In this document: piece by piece, positions 7,726 to 36,475 of the stretch
How positions within the stretch are numbered: position 1 is the stretch's first letter
How the letters are laid out: every line of letters begins with the position of its first letter
Notes under the pieces: generated by a model
The model's database searches: none
Told to the model about the DNA's origin: nothing
What the model saw: only the letters and a program-made list of their open reading frames with translations
NCBI RefSeq assembly: GCF_000420305.1
Contig: NZ_ATUR01000004.1
Location: 124,001 to 188,000 of the forward strand
DNA from: Novosphingopyxis baekryungensis DSM 16222
GTDB lineage: Bacteria > Pseudomonadota > Alphaproteobacteria > Sphingomonadales > Sphingomonadaceae
Reading direction: 5' to 3'
DNA: 64,000 nucleotides
Translations under genes and position numbers: made by a program

Positions 7726-8883
7726 ATGCTTGAGAAACGCACCTGCGATCTGGCCATTATCGGCGGCGGCCTGGCCGGCGGCCTGATCGCGCTTGCGCTG
7801 CGCCGGCAGCGCCCGGAGCTGGAGCTGCTGCTGATCGAAAGCGGCGAGACCTTTGGCGGCAACCATATCTGGAGCTATTTCAGCACCGATGTCGCGCCCG
7901 AGCATCGCTGGCTGACCGCGCCGCTGGTGACCCATGGCTGGAGCGGGCACGAGGTGCGCTTTCCGGGCCATAACCGCACGCTGCCCGATATCTATTATTC
8001 GATCGAGAGCGACCGCTTCGATCAGGTGATCCGCGAACAATTGCCGGAGCGGATGCGCGTGACCGGTGTGGAGGTGGCCTCCGCCACCCCCACCGCCATC
8101 GCGCTGAAGGGGCATGGCCGCATCCGCGCTGGCGGCGTGATCGATTGCCGCGGCCCCGCCGATACGCAGGCGCTGGATTGCGGCTGGCAGAAATTCGTCG
8201 GCCAGCTGGTCGAGCTGGAACAGCCCCATGGGCTGACCCACCCCATCATCATGGACGCTACGGTAGAGCAGAAAGATGGCTATCGCTTCGTCTATTGCCT
8301 GCCCTTCACCCCCACCTCCATGTTCGTGGAAGACACCTATTACAGCGACAAGCCGGATCTGGACCGGCGGCGGATCGCGCAGCGGATCGGCGAATATGTC
8401 GATGCGCAGGGCTGGACCATCAGCCGCACGCTGCGCGAAGAAACGGGCGTTCTGCCGGTGGTTCATGGCGGCAATCTGGCGGATTATTGGAAGGCTGGCG
8501 GAGAGCGCACCGCCAAAGCCGGCGCGCGGGCGGCCCTGTTCCACCCCATGACCAGCTATTCGCTGCCCGATGCCGTGCGCACCGCCATGGCCATTGCCGA
8601 GCTGGACGATTTTTCCGGCGATGCGCTGCATCATTTCAGCCGCAAGCTGGCGGGCGAGCACTGGCGCGATGGCGGCTTCTACCGCCTGCTCGGCAAAATG
8701 CTGTTTCTGGGTGCGCAGCCCAAGGAGCGCTATCGCCTGTTCGAACGCTTCTACCGTCTGAGCCCCGAGCTCATCACCCGCTTCTACGCCGGCCAAAGCA
8801 CCGCAGCCGACAAAATCCGCATATTGTCCGGCAAGCCGCCCATACCCATATCACGGGCTCTGCGGGCAATTTTGGGTAAATAG
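7726..8883 (+). CDS. crtY: Lycopene beta-cyclase CrtY
   Basis: 385 residues. The N-terminus is an FAD/NAD-binding Rossmann fold (CDLAIIGGGLAGGLIALAL), followed by the family block GGNHIWSYFSTDV. Further on are FVGQLVELEQPHG and FVYCLPFTPTSMFVEDTYY, all typical of bacterial CrtY. It cyclises both ends of lycopene to beta-carotene at the membrane. Two bases separate its stop from the start of crtI, so the two form one transcription unit. Pairing with the nearby hydroxylase predicts zeaxanthin-type or further hydroxylated yellow pigments. Confidence 0.97.
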   Translation: MLEKRTCDLAIIGGGLAGGLIALALRRQRPELELLLIESGETFGGNHIWSYFSTDVAPEHRWLTAPLVTHGWSGHEVRFPGHNRTLPDIYYSIESDRFDQVIREQLPERMRVTGVEVASATPTAIALKGHGRIRAGGVIDCRGPADTQALDCGWQKFVGQLVELEQPHGLTHPIIMDATVEQKDGYRFVYCLPFTPTSMFVEDTYYSDKPDLDRRRIAQRIGEYVDAQGWTISRTLREETGVLPVVHGGNLADYWKAGGERTAKAGARAALFHPMTSYSLPDAVRTAMAIAELDDFSGDALHHFSRKLAGEHWRDGGFYRLLGKMLFLGAQPKERYRLFERFYRLSPELITRFYAGQSTAADKIRILSGKPPIPISRALRAILGK

Positions 8884-8885
8884 GT

Positions 8886-10454
8886 ATGGCGACGACGATA
8901 GCTCCACGGGCAGGCGCCCAGGATCCGCGCGAGCCCGATCTGTTCGGCGCGCAGGCCCGCCCCGCCCCCACCGGCAAGACCGCGATCGTGATCGGCGCAG
9001 GATTCGGCGGTCTGGCACTCGCCATTCGCCTGCAGTCCGCCGGTATCCAGACCACGCTGGTCGAGGCGCGGGACAAGCCGGGTGGCCGGGGCTATTATTG
9101 GGAGCGCGAGGGTTTCGTCTTCGATGCCGGCCCCACCGTGATCACCGATCCCGATTGCCTGAAGGAACTCTGGTCGCTCACCGGCGCGGACATGGCGCGC
9201 GACGTGACGCTGGAGCCGGTATTCCCCTTCTATCGCCTCAACTGGGTGGACGGCACCAATTTCGATTATTCGAATGACGAGGCCAAGCTGAACGCGGAAA
9301 TCGCCAAGCTGAACCCGGACGATGTGGCAGGCTATGCCAAGTTCCTGGACTATAGCGCAGGCGTGTTCGAGGAAGGCTATGTGAAGCTGGGCCACAAGGC
9401 GTTTCTCGATTTCCCCAGCATGATCAAGGCCGCGCCGGCACTGATGAAATATCAGGCCTGGCGCTCGGTCTATTCCATGGTCAGCAAGTTCGTGAAGAAC
9501 GAGAAGCTGCGCGAGGCGCTGAGCTTCCATACGCTGCTCGTCGGCGGCAATCCCATGACCACCAGCGCCATCTATGCGCTGATCCACAAGCTGGAAAAAG
9601 ACGGCGGCGTCTGGTTCGCGATGGGCGGCACCAACCGGCTGATCGCCGGGATGGCCGCGCATTTCGAGCGGATCGGCGGCACCATGCGGCTGGGCGACCC
9701 GGTCGAGCATATCGAGACGATGGGCGACCGCGCGACGGGCGTGACCACCAAGAGCGGCTGGCATGGCGATGCCGATGCGGTGGCGAGCAATGCGGACATC
9801 GTGCACAGCTACAAGGATCTGCTGGGCAAATCCCCGCGCGGGCAGAAGGCGGCCAAGAAGCTGGCGAAGAAGAAATATTCGCCGTCGCTGTTCGTCGTGC
9901 ATTTCGGCATCGAAGGCCGCTGGCCGGGCATTCCGCACCACATGATCCTGTTCGGCCCGCGCTATGACGGGCTGCTCAAGGACATCTACGATCACGGCGT
10001 GCTGCCGCAGGATTTCTCGATCTATCTGCACCACCCCACCGTCACCGATCCGTCGATGGCGCCGGAGGGCTGCTCCACCTTCTACGCGCTGGTGCCGGTT
10101 GCCCATATGGGCAAACTGCCGATCGATTGGGACGAGGCCGGGCCGCTCCTTGAAAAGCGCGTGCTGGACGAAGTCGGCCGCCGCCTGATCCCCGATATTC
10201 ATGAGCGGATCGTGACCAAGTTCCATTATGCGCCGCCGTATTTCGCGCGCGATCTCTCCGCGCATCTCGGCAGCGCGTTCAGCCTGGAACCGGTGCTGAC
10301 GCAAAGCGCCTATTTCCGCGCCCACAACCGCGACGACCAGATCGGCAATCTGTATTTCGTCGGTGCCGGCACGCATCCGGGCGCAGGCATCCCCGGCGTG
10401 GTCGGCAGCGCCAAAGCCACCGCAGGGCTGATGCTGGAAGACATGCTGGTTTAG
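8886..10454 (+). CDS. crtI: Phytoene desaturase CrtI
   Basis: 522 residues. About 30 extra residues (Ala/Pro/Arg-rich) precede the dinucleotide-binding motif VIGAGFGGLALAIRL. The next block, EARDKPGGRGYYWEREGFVFDAGP, is the CrtI signature, and the C-terminal FAD contact FVGAGTHPGAGIPGVVGSAK is complete. It desaturates phytoene stepwise to lycopene. The last four bases overlap the stop of the convergent GIY-YIG gene. crtB, which normally follows directly, is about 1.1 kb away here. Confidence 0.98.
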   Translation: MATTIAPRAGAQDPREPDLFGAQARPAPTGKTAIVIGAGFGGLALAIRLQSAGIQTTLVEARDKPGGRGYYWEREGFVFDAGPTVITDPDCLKELWSLTGADMARDVTLEPVFPFYRLNWVDGTNFDYSNDEAKLNAEIAKLNPDDVAGYAKFLDYSAGVFEEGYVKLGHKAFLDFPSMIKAAPALMKYQAWRSVYSMVSKFVKNEKLREALSFHTLLVGGNPMTTSAIYALIHKLEKDGGVWFAMGGTNRLIAGMAAHFERIGGTMRLGDPVEHIETMGDRATGVTTKSGWHGDADAVASNADIVHSYKDLLGKSPRGQKAAKKLAKKKYSPSLFVVHFGIEGRWPGIPHHMILFGPRYDGLLKDIYDHGVLPQDFSIYLHHPTVTDPSMAPEGCSTFYALVPVAHMGKLPIDWDEAGPLLEKRVLDEVGRRLIPDIHERIVTKFHYAPPYFARDLSAHLGSAFSLEPVLTQSAYFRAHNRDDQIGNLYFVGAGTHPGAGIPGVVGSAKATAGLMLEDMLV

Positions 10455-10792
10455 CGTTTAACAGGCACCGGGCCTTCATCCGTTCGGGCTGAGCCTGTCG
10501 AAGCCTCGTCCTTCCCTCTGGACTTGGCCAACCGGCTTATCTCCTTCCAGTCGCCGCGAATCAGCGCCTTTTTCTTGGCGCGGCTCCAGCCCTTGATGCG
10601 CCGTTCCATCGAAAGCGCTTCATATCGCGTCGGGAAGTCTTGCGCCCAAACCAGCTTTACCGGTAGGCGGTCCGCCGTGAAACCGGGGATCGAACCGGCA
10701 TGGTGCTGGGCCATGCGGTTTTCCAAATCGCCGGTATCCCCGGTGTAATATTGGCCACCATGGCAATGGAGCATATAGGTCCAGAACGCCAT
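10451..10792 (-). CDS. GIY-YIG nuclease superfamily protein (UPF0213/YhbQ type)
   Basis: 113 residues. The small domain begins WTYMLHCHGGQYYTGDT, in which the usual YVYVLRS...YYIG signature is recognisable though the second motif is YYTG. R25, E60 (SMERRIKGWSR) and the conserved K-rich helix follow. YhbQ-type proteins are single-domain nucleases of uncertain cellular role. The last 20 residues (after SRGKDE) are encoded by a dispersed palindromic repeat rather than by the family domain. The gene sits on the opposite strand between crtI and the LOG gene, flanked by inverted repeat copies, and looks like an insertion into the carotenoid region. Confidence 0.88.
   Translation of the reverse strand: MAFWTYMLHCHGGQYYTGDTGDLENRMAQHHAGSIPGFTADRLPVKLVWAQDFPTRYEALSMERRIKGWSRAKKKALIRGDWKEISRLAKSRGKDEASTGSARTDEGPVPVKR
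10480..10503 (+). repeat. Dispersed extragenic palindrome-like repeat, copy 1
   Basis: A 24-base unit beginning CCGTTCGGGCTGAG and ending CCTGTCGAAG. Copy 2 at 10836-10859 is the same sequence in inverted orientation with two mismatches. This motif family is one I recognise as abundant between genes in sphingomonads. It is translated as the C-terminal tail of the GIY-YIG protein. Confidence 0.85.
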
Positions 10793-10835
10793 GGTCCTGT
10801 CCTGAGGCCGACCTTGATCAAAAGGAAGGACGACC

Positions 10836-10859
10836 CTTCGACAGGCTCAGGGCGAACGG
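10836..10859 (-). repeat. Dispersed extragenic palindrome-like repeat, copy 2
   Basis: The plus strand reads CTTCGACAGGCTCAG then GGCGAACGG, the inverse complement of copy 1 with 22 of 24 matches. It lies just upstream of the LOG gene, so the two copies bracket the GIY-YIG gene. Confidence 0.85.
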
Positions 10860-10869
10860 AGAGAAGAAT

Positions 10870-11463
10870 TTGCCAAGAGAACTGAAAAGCCTGGCCGTCT
10901 ATTGCGGCTCCGCCACCCCTTCCGATCCCATCTATATCGATACCGCCCGCCAGGTCGGGCGCGCGCTGGCGGAGCGGGGCATTCGCGTGGTCTATGGCGG
11001 CGGACGGCTGGGCCTGATGGGCGCGGTGGCCGATGCCGCGCTGGACGCAGGCGGCGAGGTGATCGGCATCATTCCCGAGGCACTGGTCGGCAGCGAAGTG
11101 GCGCATCGCGGCTGCACGGAGCTGACCATCGTGCCAGGCATGCACGCGCGCAAGCAGGCCTTCACCGATCTCAGCGACGGTTTCGTCACCCTGCCCGGCG
11201 GCGTCGGCACCATGGATGAGCTGTGGGAAGCGATCAGCTGGGCGCAGCTGGGCTATCATGACAAACCCGTCGGCCTGCTCAATGTCGGCGGCTTCTATGA
11301 CGAACTGATCGCGTTCAACCGCCGCATGATCGACACCGGCTTCATCCGCGCCCAGCATGCCGGCATCATGGTGCAGGCCGAGGAGATCGGCGCGCTGGTC
11401 GACAAGCTTGCCGCTTACGAACCGCATCGCACCATCTTCCAGATGAAGGCGGATGATTTGTGA
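10870..11463 (+). CDS. LOG family protein (TIGR00730, cytokinin riboside 5'-monophosphate phosphoribohydrolase type)
   Basis: 197 residues from a TTG codon at 10870, with GGAG about 8 bases upstream. The Rossmann-like fold shows VYGGGRLGLMGAVADAAL and the catalytic signature PGGVGTMDELWEAISWAQLG, plus the conserved MHARKQAF. Family members cleave the N-glycosidic bond of nucleoside monophosphates, releasing free base such as a cytokinin or adenine. The bacterial role is often nucleotide salvage or unknown. It lies between the repeat-flanked GIY-YIG gene and crtB in the orientation of the crt genes. Confidence 0.93.
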   Translation: MPRELKSLAVYCGSATPSDPIYIDTARQVGRALAERGIRVVYGGGRLGLMGAVADAALDAGGEVIGIIPEALVGSEVAHRGCTELTIVPGMHARKQAFTDLSDGFVTLPGGVGTMDELWEAISWAQLGYHDKPVGLLNVGGFYDELIAFNRRMIDTGFIRAQHAGIMVQAEEIGALVDKLAAYEPHRTIFQMKADDL

Positions 11464-11471
11464 ACGAATTC

Positions 11472-11568
11472 CGTCATTGCGAGGAGCCGAAGGCGACGCG
11501 GCAATCCAGAGCGGATGCAGCGCTGCGCAAGCCCTGGATTGCTTCGGCCTCGCGGCCTCGCAATGACG
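11472..11568. repeat. Long inverted-repeat (MITE/REP-like) element directly before crtB
   Basis: The left arm (11472-11509) begins CGTCATTGCGAGG and ends GCAATCCAG. The right arm (11534-11568) is its imperfect complement, beginning CTGGATTGC and ending CCTCGCAATGACG. The arms match perfectly for 13 and 9 bases at their ends. The loop contains a further small palindrome, GCAGCGCTGC. The transcript would form a long hairpin ending 9 bases before the crtB start. The same sequence type is dispersed in many alphaproteobacterial genomes. Confidence 0.9.
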
Positions 11569-11577
11569 TCCTGTGTC

Positions 11578-12519
11578 ATGGCTGAGTTCGACCGCCCTGC
11601 CCTCGTCGCCCATGCGCGCGACAGCATCGCCAAGGGCTCGCGCAGCTTTGCCGTGGCGTCCAAGCTGTTCGACAAGCCCACGCGTGAGCGCGCCTGGCTG
11701 CTCTATGCCTGGTGCCGCAAATGCGACGATCTGGCCGATGGGCAGGATCATGGTGGCGGCATGAGCGTGATCGACGATGCGGCGGATCGGCTGAACTATC
11801 TTACCGGCATGACCGAAGCGGCATGGAGCGGCGTGCCTACCGGCGATCCCGCGTTCGACGGCTTCGGGCTGGTCGCACGCGAATGCGGCATTCCGCGCCG
11901 CTATGCCGATGATCTGATTGCCGGGTTTGCGCTGGATGCCGAGGAATGGCGACCGCGCAGCGAGCAGGATCTGTACCGCTATTGCTATCATGTCGCGGGC
12001 GCGGTGGGCTGCATGATGGCCATCATCATGGGCGTGGACCCGGAAGATGACGAGACGCTGGACCGCGCCACGGACCTGGGCCTGGCCTTTCAGCTTGCCA
12101 ATATCGCGCGCGATATCGAGGAGGATGATGCCGCCGGACGCTGCTATTTGCCGATGGAGTGGCTGGCCGAGTTCGACATTCCGCCCGGCCAGCATATGAA
12201 GCCGCCCTTCCGTCCCGCGCTGGTCACGATGGCCAGACGGCTGGCCGATGCGTCGGAGCGCTACGAGGCCTCGGCGCGCGTCGGCGCGGCGCGCCTGCCC
12301 TATCGCAGCCGCTGGGCGGTGCTGGCGGCGGCCGGCATCTATGGCGATATCGCCCGTGAAGTGCGCCGCCGGGGTGCCCATGCCTGGGATCACCGGGTGT
12401 TCACGAGCAAGGCCGATAAATTGCGCTGGGTGGCACGGGCGGCAAAGCAGGCGCGCGGCACGCCGGAACAAGCCAGCCGCGATGGGCTGTGGGACCGCGC
12501 GATGATGCCGCGGGGATAG
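11578..12519 (+). CDS. crtB: Phytoene synthase CrtB
   Basis: 313 residues from ATG 11578. An in-frame ATG at 11563 lies inside the preceding repeat. No Shine-Dalgarno sequence is visible for either start because the repeat occupies the leader. Both Asp-rich substrate-binding motifs are present: CRKCDDLAD near residue 50 and LANIARDIEEDD in the second half. GRCYLP and the R-rich YRSRWAVLAAAGIYG also match the squalene/phytoene synthase family. It condenses two geranylgeranyl diphosphates to phytoene, the first committed carotenoid step. Confidence 0.97.
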   Translation: MAEFDRPALVAHARDSIAKGSRSFAVASKLFDKPTRERAWLLYAWCRKCDDLADGQDHGGGMSVIDDAADRLNYLTGMTEAAWSGVPTGDPAFDGFGLVARECGIPRRYADDLIAGFALDAEEWRPRSEQDLYRYCYHVAGAVGCMMAIIMGVDPEDDETLDRATDLGLAFQLANIARDIEEDDAAGRCYLPMEWLAEFDIPPGQHMKPPFRPALVTMARRLADASERYEASARVGAARLPYRSRWAVLAAAGIYGDIAREVRRRGAHAWDHRVFTSKADKLRWVARAAKQARGTPEQASRDGLWDRAMMPRG

Positions 12520-26303: not shown

Positions 26304-26669
26304 TCAGAGAGTATAGGGAACGCGGATGCCCGGCATATTTGCCGGAAAATCCTTGGTATTTCGTGTAATCAGGATTGCGCCATTTACCTGCGCGGTGGCC
26401 AGAATATATGCATCCAGCAGCTTCATGCGGGTGCGAAAGCGAATATCGGCTGCAGCCAGCGCAATACGCGCGTCCACCTCCACCAGTTCGAAGTAGGACA
26501 GCATGTCGCGCACCTGCTCGCGATCTTCCAGCCGCTCTCCGGCAAGCACCTCGGTCCATACGATCCGGCTGATGCGATGCGTACGATAGCGCCGCAACTC
26601 CGCCCGCGCTTCCTCCTTGCGCTTCAGCCAGTCGATCAGGATATTGGTATCGAAAAACGGATCGGACAC
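26304..26669 (-). CDS. vapC: PIN-domain ribonuclease toxin (VapC type)
   Basis: 121 residues. The PIN-domain acidic residues are in place: FFDTNILIDW at the start, WTEVLAGERL, KLLDAYILATAQ and RNTKDF. This matches VapC toxins, which cleave RNA, often initiator tRNA or 23S rRNA. It starts 3 bases after the end of the RHH antitoxin gene and ends 16 bases before glmS. The order antitoxin then toxin is the standard vapBC arrangement. Confidence 0.93.
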   Translation of the reverse strand: MSDPFFDTNILIDWLKRKEEARAELRRYRTHRISRIVWTEVLAGERLEDREQVRDMLSYFELVEVDARIALAAADIRFRTRMKLLDAYILATAQVNGAILITRNTKDFPANMPGIRVPYTL

Positions 26670-26672
26670 GCC

Positions 26673-26921
26673 TCAAAGCTCGTCATAGGGTCTGCGGTCT
26701 TGCCGAATATTGCGCTGATAGTCCAAGCCGTCGGCTATATCGTCGCGATCCGCCCAAAGCCCGAACCCCTTGTCAATCCAGCTGCGATCATCGCTGGATC
26801 GCGCCAGAAAATCATGGATGGCCTCGCGCACCAAGGATGCGCGCGATCGCTCCTTGCGCAGCGCAAGAGCGTCCAGCTTCTGGATATCCTCATCGGGCAG
26901 ATCGGCGAGAATGCGGGTCAT
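26673..26921 (-). CDS. vapB: Ribbon-helix-helix antitoxin (VapB type)
   Basis: 82 residues. The N-terminal half is an RHH DNA-binding domain: TRILADLPDEDIQKLDALALRKERSRASLVREAI. The C-terminal half is acidic and aromatic (SWIDKGFGLWADRDDIADGLDYQRNIR), the kind of tail that threads into the toxin active site. The start codon is 9 bases from a perfect palindrome at 26930-26948, probably its own operator. Confidence 0.92.
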   Translation of the reverse strand: MTRILADLPDEDIQKLDALALRKERSRASLVREAIHDFLARSSDDRSWIDKGFGLWADRDDIADGLDYQRNIRQDRRPYDEL

Positions 26922-29060: not shown

Positions 29061-29768
29061 ATGACAGATTTTCCTTACGCCATCATGGGTTTTGATCTGG
29101 ACGGCACGCTGCTCGATACCAGTGACGAGCTGACCGCATCGGTCAACCACACGCTCGGCCTGATGGGCCGCGAGACGCTGACGCGCGATCAGGTAAAGCC
29201 GATGGTCGGCCTGGGCGCCAAACATATGCTGAAGGTGGGGATAGAGCGGACCGGCAGCGACGGCGATGATCGGGATGCGCTGCTGAAGGAATATCTGCCC
29301 AGATTGCTGGAGCATTATGGCGCCAATCTTGGCAGCGGATCCCATCCCTATCCGGGCCTGATCGACGCGATGGACGCGCTGCAGGAACGCGGCGTGACGC
29401 TGGCCGTGGTCACCAACAAGTTCGAAAATTTCGCCGAGACGCTGCTGACAGCCGTCGGGCTGCGGGATCGCTTCGCCTGCGTGATCGGCGGGGACACCAT
29501 GGGCAAGGGCAAGTCCAAGCCGCACCGTGCACCGATCGACGAGATGGTCCGGCGCTGTGGCGGCACGGTGAACGAGACCCCGGCGGCGTTCATCGGCGAT
29601 TCGATTTACGATATCATGGCCGCGCATAATGGCGGCCTGCCCGCCATCGCCGTCAGCTTCGGCTTCCTGCACCAGCCGGTCGAGGAACTGGGCGCGGACG
29701 CGATCATCGATCATTATGACGCGCTGATCCCGACGCTGGAGAAGATCGCGAAGGCGTCCACCAGGTGA
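29061..29768 (+). CDS. gph: HAD-family phosphatase, phosphoglycolate-phosphatase-like
   Basis: 235 residues from ATG 29061, divergent from glmU. HAD motif I is GFDLDGTLLDTSDEL, motif II TNKFENF, and motif III/IV GKGKSKPHRAP with FIGDSIYDIMAAHNGG. The cap insertion is helical, as in Gph. Gph hydrolyses 2-phosphoglycolate arising from DNA repair or oxygenation. The motif IV residues deviate from GDSxxD spacing only slightly. The stop overlaps the GTG start of the crotonase gene. Confidence 0.9.
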   Translation: MTDFPYAIMGFDLDGTLLDTSDELTASVNHTLGLMGRETLTRDQVKPMVGLGAKHMLKVGIERTGSDGDDRDALLKEYLPRLLEHYGANLGSGSHPYPGLIDAMDALQERGVTLAVVTNKFENFAETLLTAVGLRDRFACVIGGDTMGKGKSKPHRAPIDEMVRRCGGTVNETPAAFIGDSIYDIMAAHNGGLPAIAVSFGFLHQPVEELGADAIIDHYDALIPTLEKIAKASTR

Positions 29769-30517
29769 CCATCTCGCGCAGCAACGATGACGGCATCGGC
29801 ACCATCCTGATGGACCGGCCACGGCGCAAGAACGCGCTGCAGCTGGAAGACTGGGAGGCCTTGGCCAGCGCGATTGCCGATGCAGACGCCGATGACGATG
29901 TGCGCGCCATCATCCTGACGAGCGCCCAGCCCGGCCTGTTCTGCGCCGGCGCGGACATTGCGGACATCGCCGCGCATCATGAGGACGCCGAATGGCGCGC
30001 GCGCAAATATGAAGCGGTGCAGGCCTGCAACCGCGGGCTATGGTCCAGCGACAAGCCGGTGATCGCCGCCATCGATGGCGATTGCATCGGCGGCGGCTGC
30101 GGGCTGGCACTGGCCTGCGACATCCGCATCGCCGCCCCCCACGCGCGCTTCGGCGTGACGCCGGCCAAGCTCGGCATCGCCTATGCCCGCTTCGACACTG
30201 CCCTGCTGGTGGCGGCCGTCGGCATTGCGCAGGCGCGTCGCCTGTTGATCACGGCCGACCTTATCGACGCTCCGGAAGCTCTGCGCATAGGCCTGATCGA
30301 CGAAATTTCCGACGATCCACGGTCTCTCGCCAACATCAGGGCGCAAGCTCTGCAAAGCCTTTCGCAGCACAGTATTGCAGTCTCAAAGAAACATTTGCGC
30401 GCTATCATGCAAGGCACGGTGCTGGAAGACGCGGAAAGCCGGTCGCTTTTTATCGAAAGCTATACGCGGGAAGGGTTCAGGGAGCGGCTCGACAGCTTTG
30501 TGCGCCGCAAGGGATAG
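29765..30517 (+). CDS. Crotonase superfamily protein lacking the usual catalytic glutamates
   Basis: 250 residues from GTG 29765, overlapping the gph stop (GTGA). The fold is clear: DRPRRKNALQLEDWEAL, the oxyanion-hole blocks LFCAGADIADI and CIGGGCGLALACDIRIAA. However, the position normally occupied by PE in enoyl-CoA hydratases reads TPAKLGIAY, and the second glutamate region reads AQARRLLITADLI. Both acid/base glutamates therefore appear missing, so simple hydratase activity is doubtful. An isomerase, a hydrolase-like activity or a non-catalytic role are alternatives. Confidence 0.88.
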   Translation: MTISRSNDDGIGTILMDRPRRKNALQLEDWEALASAIADADADDDVRAIILTSAQPGLFCAGADIADIAAHHEDAEWRARKYEAVQACNRGLWSSDKPVIAAIDGDCIGGGCGLALACDIRIAAPHARFGVTPAKLGIAYARFDTALLVAAVGIAQARRLLITADLIDAPEALRIGLIDEISDDPRSLANIRAQALQSLSQHSIAVSKKHLRAIMQGTVLEDAESRSLFIESYTREGFRERLDSFVRRKG

Positions 30518-30593
30518 GACTTTCGTTACACGGTTCATTTTTGCAGAAGCTGAAATATTGTCGAACGCTGGTCGACGCTCTGGGGGGAGTATC

Positions 30594-32198
30594 ATGCGCA
30601 TTCTATTCTTTTTCGCGATCCTGGTCCTGGCTGTCGGCCTGCCAGGGAGCGCTCAGGCCAGATGGCTGGAAGCGTCGAGCGACCATTTCGTGGTCTATGC
30701 CGATGATAGCGAAAAGGATTTGCGCGCCTTCACGCAGCAACTCGAACGCTATGATGCGGCGATGGGGTTTCTATTCAACGACCGGGCAGCCAAACCGAGT
30801 CCATCCAACCGCGTCACGATCTATGTCGTAAAAAACGAACGCGACGTGCGAAAGCTGCTGGGGAATGGAGCAAAAAACGTTGCGGGTTTCTACGTGCCAC
30901 GGGCCGGCGCTTCGGTCGCATTCGTGCCCAAGATCGACGTGCAGTCGCGCGAAACCGACAGATCCATGCTTATTCTGCTGCATGAATATGCCCATCATTT
31001 CCTGATTTCGAACAGCAGTTTTCCCATGCCGGCCTGGATGTCTGAGGGGGCGGCGGAGTTCTATGCTTCGGCCAGTTTCAATAAGGATGGCGGTGTCAGC
31101 CTGGGCCGTCCGGCGCAGCACCGCGCCTATGAATTGTACAATGATGGCGGCCTGACCGTCGAGCAGATCCTATCCACGCCGCGCAATGATCGAAGCCGCA
31201 GTTTCAGTGCTTTTTATGGCAAAAGCTGGCTCCTCTATCATTACCTGATGCTGTCAGGGGACCGAACTGGCCAAATTCGCAAATATGGCCAGGCTCTGCA
31301 AAACGGCCTGCCCTTGCGCGACGCTGCCGTGGAAGCCTTTGGCGACCTCGATCAGTTGGAGAAGGACGTCGGCAAATATCTGTCGCGACGGCGAATGAAT
31401 GTCATTCAATTATCAGGCGAAAAAATCGACATCGGGCCGGTGCAGATACGCACCCTGGGCAACGGCGAAGCCGATATGATGCCCGTGCGCATCACCTCCA
31501 AAAGTGGCGTGACGCGCGAACAGGCGCTCGAACTGCTTAGCGACGCACGCGAGATAGCCGCAGACTATCCCGGCGATGCCGCCGTGCTGGCGGCGCTGGC
31601 GGAAGCGGAATTCGATGCCGGTTTTGACGACCGGGCCATTGCAGCTGCCGATGGCGCCCTGGCGATCGATCCGAAGCGGGTGAATGCCTATGTGCAAAAA
31701 GGCTATGCCATGTTCAGGAAAGCCGAAAATGCGGACGACAGGGAAGCCGCCTTCGCCGAAGCCGTAAAGCCCTTCGTCGCGCTGAATAAAATCGAAAACG
31801 ACCATCCGCTTCCGCTCATCTATTTCTACAGAAGTTATATGGAACGTGGCGCCAAGCCCAGTGAATTGGCGGTGCGCGGCCTGGATTGGGCATCGCAGCT
31901 TGCACGTTTCGATCTGGGCTTGCGGTTCATGCTGGCCCGGCAGGATTTGCTGGACCGCGATTTCGCACGCGCACGCGCGAACCTGATCCCGGTGGCCTAT
32001 AATCCCCATGGCGGCGCGCTGGCGTCGCAGGCGCGTGCCGTGCTGGACGCGCTGGAAAAGATCGGAGACCCGGAACAACTGGCCAGAATGATGGCGGCCA
32101 GTCCCGAGACAGACATGCAAACCGGCGGCGACCGTGAAGGGGAGAACGGGGAAGAGGATGGCGAAACCGGGGACGCGCTTTCCAGCACACCCCGTTAG
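30594..32198 (+). CDS. Exported DUF1570-like metallopeptidase with TPR-type repeats
   Basis: 534 residues from ATG 30594 with GGGGGGAG just upstream. Signal peptide: MRILFFFAILVLAVGLPGSAQA. The first half carries a gluzincin site, LLHEYAHHFL, followed by the third ligand region WMSEGAAEFYAS, consistent with a zinc peptidase (DUF1570-like). The second half has helical TPR-like repeats (ADYPGDAAVLAALAEAEFDAGFDDRAIAAADGALAIDPKRVNAYVQKGYAM, split here over residues about 340-400). The C-terminal tail is acidic. Likely periplasmic; substrate unknown. Confidence 0.87.
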   Translation: MRILFFFAILVLAVGLPGSAQARWLEASSDHFVVYADDSEKDLRAFTQQLERYDAAMGFLFNDRAAKPSPSNRVTIYVVKNERDVRKLLGNGAKNVAGFYVPRAGASVAFVPKIDVQSRETDRSMLILLHEYAHHFLISNSSFPMPAWMSEGAAEFYASASFNKDGGVSLGRPAQHRAYELYNDGGLTVEQILSTPRNDRSRSFSAFYGKSWLLYHYLMLSGDRTGQIRKYGQALQNGLPLRDAAVEAFGDLDQLEKDVGKYLSRRRMNVIQLSGEKIDIGPVQIRTLGNGEADMMPVRITSKSGVTREQALELLSDAREIAADYPGDAAVLAALAEAEFDAGFDDRAIAAADGALAIDPKRVNAYVQKGYAMFRKAENADDREAAFAEAVKPFVALNKIENDHPLPLIYFYRSYMERGAKPSELAVRGLDWASQLARFDLGLRFMLARQDLLDRDFARARANLIPVAYNPHGGALASQARAVLDALEKIGDPEQLARMMAASPETDMQTGGDREGENGEEDGETGDALSSTPR

Positions 32199-32226: not shown

Positions 32227-33288
32227 TCAACTCCTGCGCCATTTGGTCCACAGATGGCGCGCCAGCATGGCAGGCGGCATGCGCATGGCATGCCCGCGGA
32301 TGGTGAAGGCCAGGCGCAGTAACGGTCTGGTTTGCCGCCCCCAGCCGTCGCGGGCCATCAGGCGGGCCTCGAACAGATTGTCCATCCGGCTGTTATGACC
32401 GCGCAGCTTTTCGTCCACCGGGGTGCCGTAGATCCGCTCGGACAGGCGCAGCGCGCGGCGGACATGGGAAAGCAACTGATGGCGGCGCGCGCGCACGGCC
32501 AGCGCGTCCCAGAAATTGGCCGATCCGGCAAATTCGCGCAGCATCCGGTCGATATCCCACAGATTGCGCAGGCCGCCCTCCATCTCGCCATCGGCAAACA
32601 GATGCGCGATCGCATGGCAGACCATGTCTGCGGGCGACAGGACATGGAGCCCGTGCCAGCTGCTGAACTTGGCCAGCCGTACGCCTTTCTGCTGCGCATC
32701 GGGCTGCAGCGCGATGGCCGATGCCAGCATGGCGGCGGGATCCGGGCTGGGCCGCGCCGTGCGGGGAAGGATGGTGTGATGCACGTCGATCATCCGATCC
32801 CGCTCACGGTGGATCAGCGGCGGCAGCTCATGCATCCAGCGGCGATAATATTGATCGTCATAGGCGTCTTCCTTCACCCATTCCCATCCGGCCGCGAGCA
32901 GCGCCTTCTCCACCTCATCCAGATCCTTTTCGGCGACAAGGATGTCCAGATCACCAATCGAGCGGCCAGCCCCGGCATCCATGTTCGCCGCAACATAGGC
33001 GGTGCCTTTCAGCAGAACCGCCTTGCCATGATAGTCTTTCAGCGCGCGGCGGCAGCAATCGGCTTCCCACAAAGCCGCGCGCCGCTCCTGTTCGGAAGAG
33101 CGCCGCGCGTCGGCCAGCACGGCCTCCACCTCGACGGGCAGACCGCGCCCTTCCAGCCGCACGGCCAGCGCACCGATCAGCCGTTCCGCCCGCGCCACCG
33201 CGATCAGCGCATTCCATTGGCGCGCCCCGAAACTGCCGGCCAGGCGGGGGTCCCGCAAGGTCGCGGCGAGACGGCGAATGGGGGTCAT
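32227..33288 (-). CDS. Nucleotidyltransferase-fold protein (NTP_transf_5 type) of the HprK/PqqD operon
   Basis: 353 residues from ATG 33288, which overlaps the stop of the kinase gene (ATGA). The nucleotidyltransferase core is at residues 90-125: VLLKGTAYVAAN, then RSIGDLDILVAE with the paired acidic residues of the Pol-beta type fold, and a downstream HPF-like DVHHTILPR. The family is largely uncharacterised, and members occur in operons with an HprK-like kinase and a PqqD-like protein. In some lasso-peptide clusters a protein of this fold modifies a phosphorylated peptide. Here the substrate is unknown. Confidence 0.88.
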   Translation of the reverse strand: MTPIRRLAATLRDPRLAGSFGARQWNALIAVARAERLIGALAVRLEGRGLPVEVEAVLADARRSSEQERRAALWEADCCRRALKDYHGKAVLLKGTAYVAANMDAGAGRSIGDLDILVAEKDLDEVEKALLAAGWEWVKEDAYDDQYYRRWMHELPPLIHRERDRMIDVHHTILPRTARPSPDPAAMLASAIALQPDAQQKGVRLAKFSSWHGLHVLSPADMVCHAIAHLFADGEMEGGLRNLWDIDRMLREFAGSANFWDALAVRARRHQLLSHVRRALRLSERIYGTPVDEKLRGHNSRMDNLFEARLMARDGWGRQTRPLLRLAFTIRGHAMRMPPAMLARHLWTKWRRS

Positions 33289-34142
33289 GGAAACTGCGCC
33301 CAGAGCTGGTCGATTAGCTCCAGCCCCTCTTCCCCGCGCCGATAGTCGATGGCCCGTGCAGGCACCGTTTCGCAAAAGCGCGTGAGCGCGGCAAAACCGG
33401 CTTCGCCAAGCGCGACATAATTGGTCGAGGCCTGGGTGAGCCGCATGAACAGCTCGCTTGGGGGGACGGTGCGGATGGCGCGCGCTTCGCCGAAACGCGG
33501 AAACAGGATCAGCCTGGGCAGGGCCGCCTCGTCCATCCGCTGGATCGCATCGTGCGACGGCACGAGGTGGCGGATATCGCCCTTCGGCGTGCCACGCAGA
33601 CGTGGCCCGAGCCGCTGATGGCCGACCCGCTGTTCCAGCGCTTCGATACCCTCATTTTTCAGGCTGACCAGCCGGGGAAAGGGATGCACCGCGCCATCCT
33701 CCAGCCCCAGCAGGGCAAACTCGTCGCTCAGGAACCGCCAGCCGCTTTCGCCCAGCAGCGCGGCCATGGTGGATTTGCCCGATCCGGACATCCCGGTCAT
33801 CACCAGCGCGCGGCCATCCTTCTCCGCCGCGCCGGCATGCAGCAGCAGATGCCGCCGCCAGCCCAGCGCCATCTGCAGGTTCATGCCCATTTCCGCCGCC
33901 AGCAGCCCTTGCACAAGCGGCAGCGGCGCAGCGTCCGGCAACATGTAATCGCCCGAAATCATGACCGAGGGCCGCAGCCATCGGCGCCACGGACGGGCCG
34001 GTTCCAGCCGGACCGTATAGTCGCAATAAGACGGCGTGGGGTACGCCGCGTAAAGGCGCTCGAGCGCCGCGACGGGCGCCCGCCAGGCCGATCCGATGCG
34101 AAAGGCCGCCGGACCGACGCGGATGCGCAATTCATGCATCAT
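33285..34142 (-). CDS. HprK-related kinase A
   Basis: 285 residues. Walker A is GMSGSGKST at 117-125, preceded by LLLHAGAAEKDGRALVMT, where HPr kinases carry their conserved His region. The Walker-B-like segment is FLSDEFALLG near 137-146; classic HprK has an aspartate pair here. The N-terminal 100 residues have no HprK sensor domain similarity. The protein resembles the HprK-related kinase A family, which is not a sugar-control kinase and occurs with PqqD-like proteins. Overlaps of four bases at both ends (ATGA) couple it to its neighbours. Confidence 0.9.
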   Translation of the reverse strand: MMHELRIRVGPAAFRIGSAWRAPVAALERLYAAYPTPSYCDYTVRLEPARPWRRWLRPSVMISGDYMLPDAAPLPLVQGLLAAEMGMNLQMALGWRRHLLLHAGAAEKDGRALVMTGMSGSGKSTMAALLGESGWRFLSDEFALLGLEDGAVHPFPRLVSLKNEGIEALEQRVGHQRLGPRLRGTPKGDIRHLVPSHDAIQRMDEAALPRLILFPRFGEARAIRTVPPSELFMRLTQASTNYVALGEAGFAALTRFCETVPARAIDYRRGEEGLELIDQLWAQFP

Positions 34143-34456
34143 GGCCCGCCTTCTGCGCCGTCCGCCTGCCCGGGGCTTACCCGTTCGGCCAAACCAAGCG
34201 CCGCCAGCTCTTCCAGCCGCGCGCCGATGATCGCCGCCGCATCGGTCTGCGGCAGCTCGTAATCCTCCGCCAGACGCGCGGCGATGGCGGGCGCATCCAT
34301 CGCCCTGTCCTGCATGACCGAGAGGATCTGGGGCACCGGTTCCATCACGATATGGGTCTGCCCGGACCGGCGATGATAGACCAGCGTCACCGCGTCGAGC
34401 GGATGCCAGACGAGCTCGCTTTCGGGCACACGGATATAGAGTGGATCATGGGGCAT
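34139..34456 (-). CDS. PqqD-like peptide chaperone of the HPr-rel-A type
   Basis: 105 residues. The PqqD fold pattern is visible: LVWHPLDAVTLVYHRRSGQTHIVMEPVPQILSVMQ, then MDAPAIAARLAEDYELPQTDAAAIIGARLEELAALGLAERV. PqqD-type domains bind leader peptides and deliver them to modifying enzymes (RRE, RiPP recognition element). Coupling to the HprK-related kinase by an ATGA overlap suggests that this protein presents a peptide or protein for phosphorylation. It starts 63 bases after the small exported protein gene. Confidence 0.88.
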   Translation of the reverse strand: MPHDPLYIRVPESELVWHPLDAVTLVYHRRSGQTHIVMEPVPQILSVMQDRAMDAPAIAARLAEDYELPQTDAAAIIGARLEELAALGLAERVSPGQADGAEGGP

Positions 34457-34519
34457 GATCTGCCCCTTGTCCGCACGCAGGGCGCAGGGCGCAAGCCCGA
34501 AAAGGGCCGGAATGCGCGA

Positions 34520-34951
34520 TCAGCGCGGCATTTGCAGCGATGCGTAGCAGGTAAAGCCGCTCTGGCCGGCCTGCAGCCTGCGGATATAGTTCAGATAGGC
34601 CTGGTTCTGCTCATAGCTTGCGCCGGGCAAGGCGCCGCCCTTCATCGCACGCTTGACCTCTTCGCCGGTAAAAGGCCGCCCCGGCGGCGCAAAGGAACCC
34701 GGCGTATCGGCGGGCACCAGGCGGCCGTCGCCCGCAATATATTGTCCGGCATGGCTGCGGTCCGGCACGGGAATTTCGCAGTTGAGAACCGATCCGGCGG
34801 CCTGCGCAATGGCCGGGCGCACGCTGACGATGGTGGAGGCGGCAAAGGCACCCAGCATCAGGGCGCGGCGGCGATCGACCACGCCTGCGGTCTTTTTCGC
34901 TGCGTTATCTCCGTCCGCATCCGCCTGTTCATGCTCAGGACCGTCACTCAC
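34520..34951 (-). CDS. Small exported protein, first gene of the PqqD/HprK operon
   Basis: 143 residues from a GTG at 34951 with GGGAG 9 bases upstream; the longer frame to 35020 lacks a ribosome-binding site. About 30 charged residues lead to a twin-arginine-like signal, VDRRRALMLGAFAASTIVS, ending near AIAQA. The mature part of about 90 residues has two cysteines (LNCEIPVP, GFTCYASLQMPR) and Pro/Gly-rich stretches (DTPGSFAPPGRPF). No family is recognised. Being first in the operon of the modifying enzymes, it is the natural candidate substrate; this is inference. Confidence 0.75.
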   Translation of the reverse strand: MSDGPEHEQADADGDNAAKKTAGVVDRRRALMLGAFAASTIVSVRPAIAQAAGSVLNCEIPVPDRSHAGQYIAGDGRLVPADTPGSFAPPGRPFTGEEVKRAMKGGALPGASYEQNQAYLNYIRRLQAGQSGFTCYASLQMPR

Positions 34952-35116
34952 CGCTATCGTCTCCCAGAAAAACGAGAAGCCATTGCATAGCGAGCGATGC
35001 AGATGAAAGCGAGGGTGCACGGCGCATGCCCTTGCCGGTCGTCCGATGCCGGGACGGTCGGCGATGGTGAAAATCGCAATTTGTGGCGCTCCGGCAAGCT
35101 GCTATGGCCTCTGCAC

Positions 35117-36446: not shown

Positions 36447-36475
36447 TTGTCACGCGACTGTCATGTGACAGTCAC
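36447..36475 (+). promoter_or_regulatory. Triple Pho box upstream of pstS
   Basis: Three 7-base units, TTGTCAC, CTGTCAT and CAGTCAC, are spaced by exactly 4 bases (GCGA, GTGA), giving an 11-base period on one face of the helix. This fits the PhoB binding consensus (CTGTCAT repeated every 11). The first unit starts 137 bases before the pstS ATG. Confidence 0.88.

Follow-up and report, generated by a model that had tools for sequence, protein, structure and literature searches.

What do a PqqD-like protein, an HprK-related kinase and a nucleotidyltransferase-like protein act on when they are encoded together in an operon with no lasso cyclase among its genes? We address this question for a locus in Novosphingopyxis baekryungensis DSM 16222, lying in a stretch of 64,000 nucleotides (the window; contig NZ_ATUR01000004.1, positions 124,001 to 188,000) that holds four genes, all on the minus strand, in the order exported protein, PqqD, kinase and NTP_transf_5 protein. 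The exported protein, here called EXP, proved to be the constant partner of the kinase among relatives. Judging from sequence comparison and analogy, we consider it probable that the four genes serve to produce and export a single modified protein, with the kinase acting on an invariant serine of EXP. What the sequences support is co-inheritance, gene order, kept catalytic residues, the fold of a RiPP recognition element (RRE; RiPP, ribosomally synthesized and post-translationally modified peptide) and a signature common to the partner proteins; phosphorylation of EXP, its site and a second modification would follow by analogy with known systems.

34520..34951, minus strand: EXP, a 143-residue exported protein with a twin-arginine-type signal, the proposed substrate (sequence; co-inheritance with the kinase)
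34139..34456, minus strand: PqqD-like RiPP recognition element, TIGR04353 (profile; structure model and fold matches)
33285..34142, minus strand: HprK-related kinase A, TIGR04352 (profile; residues kept in 81/81)
32227..33288, minus strand: NTP_transf_5 protein, PF14907 (profile)

An earlier note on this DNA had described three genes overlapping by ATGA behind the gene of a small exported protein, two of them forming an HprK-related kinase/PqqD pair. Indeed, its coordinates were exact and all three enzyme genes exceed curated cut-offs, with 63.9 bits against 35 for PqqD (TIGR04353), 233.6 against 200 for the kinase (TIGR04352) and 162.4 against 31.2 for the NTP_transf_5 protein (PF14907, scored on a longer open reading frame (ORF) of 382 residues). 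The overlaps, PqqD/kinase and kinase/NTP_transf_5, are of 4 nt each, the gap between EXP and PqqD is 63 nt, and the motifs GMSGSGKST (kinase) and GDLDILV (NTP_transf_5 protein) are both present. EXP begins with a GTG start codon, and the longest ORF of its frame begins at 35020. PADLOC gave no result for the window's locus.

Co-inheritance of EXP and the kinase

The order Sphingomonadales was represented by 196 genomes, 88 of which encode the kinase with a score above the cut-off, so the four-gene set is not a chance arrangement. Searching the same 196 genomes with a profile of 20 EXP sequences (E 1e-3), we found EXP, within the window's family, in 32/32 kinase-positive and 0/81 kinase-negative genomes, counts that ignore kinship among genomes, with one genus (g11) containing both states. 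The matches were strong (31 at E < 1e-50, and G053 at 2.2e-8); three kinase-negative genomes have matches to the profile at E 0.003-0.007. Among named species, for which 80 of 421 relatives were examined, PqqD, kinase and NTP_transf_5 genes were found in 74/74 loci with at least 2.7 kb of downstream sequence, the relatives including Sphingomonas, Sphingobium, Sphingorhabdus, Parasphingorhabdus, Sphingopyxis and Novosphingobium. The conserved order and the constancy of the exported gene, proposed in the earlier note as a check, are thus borne out, and the partner is the only short gene that keeps appearing in the operon across the loci read.

The partner need not be adjacent. A protein of EXP's class (class I, described below) was present in 61/61 Sphingomonadales genomes read, 55 times near the operon and six times elsewhere. 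Within the window's family, 6 of the 32 kinase-positive genomes have EXP and kinase apart: in G035, G080, G097, G119 and G167 EXP lies 160-690 kb from the kinase or on another contig, with a PhoR-like gene as its neighbour; G053 keeps the partner together with a PqqD-like gene, likewise next to a PhoR-like gene, and has the kinase and NTP_transf_5 genes on another contig. In L161-L165 (about 8100-11700) EXP is still divergent from the PhoR-like gene although the PqqD, HprK and NTP_transf_5 genes lie elsewhere; the gene beside it is presumably MarR-like.

A signature shared by dissimilar partners

Outside the window's family, in other families and other classes, the protein encoded 5' of PqqD often shares the build of EXP even though no similarity between the two sequences was detected. 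In other Sphingomonadales and in the beta-type loci, this build consists of a twin-arginine signal, S-x2-3-C after the signal, a variable middle, a C-terminal C-x-x-S and an even number of cysteines. In a set of 73 class I proteins (74 before L043 was dropped as a false row), where the C-terminal motif is present by selection, a serine stands 3 or 4 residues before the first post-signal cysteine in 72. An even number of cysteines was found in 84/85 non-identical mature class I proteins, with exactly two in all 29 of the window's type. The reach of the pairing to partners unlike EXP in sequence, and the S..C / C..S signature itself, go beyond the earlier note.

The C-terminal motif was also scored in candidates chosen blind, that is, picked by position and signal with the C-terminus unseen. 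C-x-x-S lay at most 60 residues from the end in 43/49 candidates of the order (61 loci, 12 of them without a candidate), in 6/8 candidates outside the order (20 loci, 12 without a candidate; L133 and L139 without the motif) and in 20/22 of the beta-type set (30 loci, 8 without a candidate), where 6 of the 20 positives and both negatives (L091, L094) come from genomes also read as L121-L134. By comparison, the motif lay near the end in 8/442 control genes, from which genes near the kinase had been excluded; this set replaced an earlier control (56/673) that still contained partners. Of the six motif-less candidates of the order, L032 and L045 look wrong-frame, in L035, L036 and L041 the pick is a long, distant ORF, and L081 is another gene. 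A motif scan of adjacent ORFs in the 61 Sphingomonadales loci found none in L035, L036, L037, L040, L041, L043, L072 and L081 and a false one in L058, leaving 52. L040 is an ORF-choice miss, in L058 and L081 EXP is further upstream, and in L035, L036, L037, L041, L043 and L072 it is elsewhere in the genome.

Some genomes carry two partners, in tandem (L032, L044, L170) or unlinked (L167-L169). The second, unlinked class I partners of L167, L168 and L169 (about 9300-10200) belong to family f5, and we take their neighbours to be a sigma-factor gene and a small YCII-like gene.

The enzymes and the recognition element

The residues on which catalysis would depend are encoded as follows, invariance being judged in alignments of 30 kinase sequences (A2) and 30 NTP_transf_5 protein sequences (A3).

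33837..33839, minus strand: kinase His102 codon, invariant in A2
33774..33776, minus strand: kinase Walker A Lys123 codon, invariant in A2
33720..33725, minus strand: kinase Asp140-Glu141 codons, invariant in A2
32944..32952, minus strand: NTP_transf_5 protein Asp113-Leu-Asp115 (GDLDIL) codons, both Asp invariant in A3

The pattern of His, Walker A and Asp-[Asp/Glu] was found in 81/81 kinases; degeneracy of these residues across the family, named in the earlier note as an argument against its substrate model, was not seen. The kinases were collected by a profile search of all ORFs, which found 81/81, as gene calling with a pooled codon model missed many and with a per-locus model four. The kinase profile aligns to the HprK/P structure 1ko7 over the same three elements (E 0.0004, about 45 residues). 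The NTP_transf_5 proteins keep K-G in 79/79, D-x-D in 76/79 and D-x-H-H in 74/79, and their profile is weakly like AbiEii-type nucleotidyltransferases (best E 0.17). In L131 (9468-11588) kinase and NTP_transf_5 protein form one frame of 706 residues, which would fit joint action.

The PqqD-like protein gave a model with a predicted local distance difference test score (pLDDT) of 89.8, and the best Foldseek matches (6jx3, 5v1v, 8t19, 5sxy) had probability 1.00 and E 0.002-0.02, none below 0.001. These matches comprise PbtF, PqqD and leader-bound RREs of lasso systems. When the PqqD profile was compared with PDB sequences, designed helical proteins came top and TfuB1 (E 0.013) was the first natural RRE. 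The modelled structure thus supports an RRE fold, in keeping with the earlier note's view of a PqqD-type domain of the leader-recognising kind, and the protein may well bind the leader of EXP.

A proposed route for EXP

The features of EXP that matter for the proposal are listed here, with alignment A1 comprising 20 EXP proteins and serving also as the source of the search profile.

34805..34951, minus strand: predicted leader/signal, residues 1-49 (RRR 27-29, AIA 47-49), from sequence and A1, with an inferred cleavage site
34790..34792, minus strand: Ser54 codon, alternative acceptor, invariant in 20/20 in A1
34778..34780, minus strand: Cys58 codon, invariant in A1
34547..34549, minus strand: Cys135 codon, of the C-terminal C-x-x-S (A1)
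34538..34540, minus strand: Ser138 codon, preferred acceptor, invariant in A1 (also blind motif tests)

The steady company of an adapter, a kinase and a transferase-like enzyme suggests that the variable exported protein is modified before export. PqqD, as an RRE, would hold EXP in the cytoplasm by its N-terminal leader/signal region; the HprK-type kinase would phosphorylate an invariant serine, most likely Ser138 of C-x-x-S; and the NTP_transf_5 protein would add a group, perhaps a hexose, to the phosphate. EXP would exit through the twin-arginine translocation (Tat) pathway, and signal peptidase would remove the signal. Traits of a Tat substrate are present, since EXP has RRR at 27-29, followed by a hydrophobic stretch and AIA at 47-49, and the genome encodes TatC (E 3.4e-72). 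A Cys58-Cys135 disulfide, the natural expectation, would tie the ends of mature EXP beside the invariant serines, with the variable segment between them. We favour Ser138 on two grounds: the serine used by lasso kinases is C-terminal, and some class II proteins have C-x-x-S as well.

Several observations weigh against this proposal. The Tat-signal profile TIGR01409 gave no match to EXP at E 0.1; it matches two of eight partners of other types, below cut-off. The structure model of EXP is weak, with a mean pLDDT of 65.9 and values of about 58 at Cys58 and 57 at Cys135, and so lends the disulfide no support, and Ser54 is as invariant as Ser138 in A1. The [Y/W]xxP motif bound by the RREs of lasso peptides and of linear polyphosphorylated peptides (LPP) occurs in 0/73 class I leaders, which means either a new recognition mode or an argument against leader binding. 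An even cysteine number is also frequent in controls (27/33 signal-like proteins; 129/234 control genes with at least two cysteines). Class II partners, of gamma-type loci, have the signal and a conserved region after it and no C-terminal motif, and in the set around G452 (15 loci, 3 without a candidate) only 4/12 candidates have C-x-x-S after the signal. In the LPP study introduced below, deletion of lppN caused no visible change (PMC13381572). Finally, exosortase is dispensable for the system, since a search of 20 kinase-bearing genomes outside the order found none in G201, G231, G239, G286 and G213, one of which is a single contig.

Within class II, C-x-x-S follows the signal in L121/L091, L124/L094, L128, L136, L137, L256, L257, L258 and L260, and is lacking there in L138, L140/L269, L261, L263-L267 and L139/L268 (L268 and L269 repeat L139 and L140). 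The partners of L256, L257 and L258 have a second common motif, SPGYWK-like, after the first conserved region. In a quick tree of 80 of the 81 kinases, ten class II-type kinases form one clade (support 0.937); the kinase-NTP_transf_5 fusion of L131 was misplaced in this tree, its tail having been retained. EXP itself matches no family model of Pfam or NCBIfam at E 0.1, none of the eight partners of other types exceeds a Pfam or NCBIfam cut-off, and neither a sequence search of the PDB nor Foldseek with the EXP model against the PDB (best E 3.5) gave a match for EXP.

Relation to known systems

The enzyme set without a lasso cyclase is already known from LPP of Bacillota (Nat Commun, May 2026), which the report on them calls restricted to that phylum (PMC13381572); what is new here is the partner class. 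Both operon types have a discrete RRE, an HprK-like kinase and an NTP transferase and lack a cyclase; the precursor is conserved in its N-terminal region and variable in its C-terminal part (35-200 residues in LPP, 143 in EXP); and LPP clusters lie within polysaccharide loci, as paeninodin clusters also do (capsular polysaccharide), while some relatives of the window's operon lie near exosortase genes. In contrast to LPP as described there, the window's system has a twin-arginine-type signal, paired cysteines, a proteobacterial host and no [Y/W]xxP. No SipW-like peptidase or MsbA-like transporter was found among the genes next to the operon, the rest of the genome not having been searched. Paeninodin and pseudomycoidin share the HprK-like kinase (theirs acting on a C-terminal Ser), an NTP-type protein and a discrete RRE; PadeK phosphorylates the C-terminal serine, and PsmN is credited with hexoses on that phosphate (PMC9266682). 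The window's operon differs from lasso clusters in having no macrolactam cyclase among its genes, and the B2 leader peptidase profile PF13471 has 0 matches in its own genome, in line with the earlier note, which saw no lasso cyclase. By leader motif and by peptidase and transporter neighbours, the operon is thus not an LPP cluster, nor by leader peptidase a lasso cluster; it may work like these systems all the same.

The kinase and PqqD exceed the cut-offs of the HPr-rel-A models (TIGR04352, TIGR04353), whose descriptions name no substrate; the partner class is what our analysis adds to them. HPr kinase/phosphorylase shares the aligned His, Walker A and Asp-Asp/Glu with 1ko7, but only about 45 residues align and there is no HPr-type gene in the window's operon. 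In an open-licence library of papers we found none on the HprK-related kinase A / PqqD family names, none joining an HprK-related kinase with PqqD or HprK with exosortase, none joining twin-arginine with RiPP, PqqD and exopolysaccharide, and none joining HPr kinase with exopolysaccharide and PqqD.

Weighing the alternatives

By analogy, the system is most likely a proteobacterial, Tat-exported counterpart of LPP and paeninodin, in which a serine of EXP would be phosphorylated and perhaps capped. A somewhat unlikely yet serious variant of it has Ser54 as the acceptor, in the S-x3-C after the signal cleavage site, with C-x-x-S only holding the disulfide. LppK acts on Ser3 of the linear precursor core, just after the cleavage site (PMC13381572), which would suit this variant, as would the invariance of Ser54 in A1 and the serine 3 or 4 residues before the first cysteine in 72/73 class I proteins against about 9% Ser in mature sequence. 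Serines are common near cleavage sites, however, some class II proteins carry C-x-x-S after the signal but lack a serine before the cysteine, and the lasso kinases use the C-terminal serine (PMC9266682). We think it unlikely that PqqD, kinase and NTP_transf_5 protein act on another peptide or a small molecule, with EXP as a co-inherited user or carrier of the product outside the cell. The distance at which EXP can lie from the enzyme genes and the unrelated sequences of class II partners would be explained in this way, but the presence of EXP follows the kinase (32/32 against 0/81), the PqqD-like gene of G053 stays with the partner while kinase and NTP_transf_5 genes are elsewhere, and the loci read offer no other recurring short gene as a substrate.

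It would be more surprising still if PqqD served the EXP signal as a Tat proofreading chaperone, with the kinase regulating export or folding rather than making a final modification; the PqqD model matches RiPP RREs best, and the invariant serine and the NTP_transf_5 protein would be left unexplained, even though the conserved region of the partners is the signal itself and no RRE-binding motif is seen. Least credible, in our judgement, is that the association reflects synteny conserved around phoR-pst and glmU, the secreted protein being under phosphate control. A PhoR-like gene is found upstream on the opposite strand in 63/74 named loci and is usually divergent from EXP, also when the other operon genes lie elsewhere (all six unlinked cases). 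In L031, L066 and L069, however, EXP and the operon stay together although the roughly 20 kb read there contain no PhoR-like gene; the partners and the kinase are found again in other classes; and there is no Pho-box-like match between EXP and phoR. The tie to phosphate status through phoR that the earlier note had suggested was therefore not upheld, and the phoR association looks like synteny.

We regard it as possible, if short of probable, that these loci define a proteobacterial class of RRE-guided, kinase-modified Tat cargo, hypervariable, with ends tied by a disulfide that two invariant serines flank (S-x2-3-C ... C-x-x-S) and a phospho-sugar on one of these serines. If so, RiPP-type modification would extend to protein-sized Tat cargo, and phospho-RiPP chemistry would reach beyond small peptides of Bacillota to proteins that Proteobacteria export. 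With two candidate acceptor residues in the partner class, the system lends itself to a direct test in sphingomonads that are in culture.

Genomic neighbourhood

In other families of the order, 31/56 kinases lie within 15 kb of an exosortase, which is every same-contig case among the matches listed, whereas in the window's family 0/16 same-contig kinases lie within 20 kb of one, again among the matches listed; the exosortases of the window's own genome sit on another contig. Exosortase presence is a weak predictor in the window's family (32/32 kinase-positive against 54/81 kinase-negative genomes). Outside the order, 15/20 kinase-bearing genomes have an exosortase, at most 20 kb from the kinase only in G477 and at about 20-60 kb in several others. 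The linkage is thus tight only in part of the order, and the idea of the beta-type loci as exosortase loci was dropped (5/20 non-order genomes without an exosortase, one with it within 20 kb). Some beta-type loci presumably have glycosyltransferase genes and an asparagine synthase-like gene around the operon. A role at the cell surface or linked to polysaccharide would be guesswork, with the neighbourhood of some relatives as its lead.

In the window, the divergent neighbour of EXP is PhoR-like (300.6 bits, below the model's cut-off of 334.2) and is followed by a PstS-like gene (PF12849, 158 bits against 27). Two overlapping Pho-box-like matches with two mismatches each lie just upstream of pstS (36447-36475), the window total not being above that of shuffles. 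The genes flanking the operon include a gph-like and a TPR/DUF1570-like gene (the latter under cut-off), and others that we take to be glmU-, hydratase- and pst-permease-like. The TPR/DUF1570-like gene and another gene, presumably the hydratase-like one, lie between the NTP_transf_5 gene and gph (29765-32198), which adjoin each other in many other loci. Between glmU and glmS there are two small genes (26304-26921), presumably ribbon-helix-helix-like and PIN-like, whose clusters (c15, c20) recur in several sphingomonad loci.

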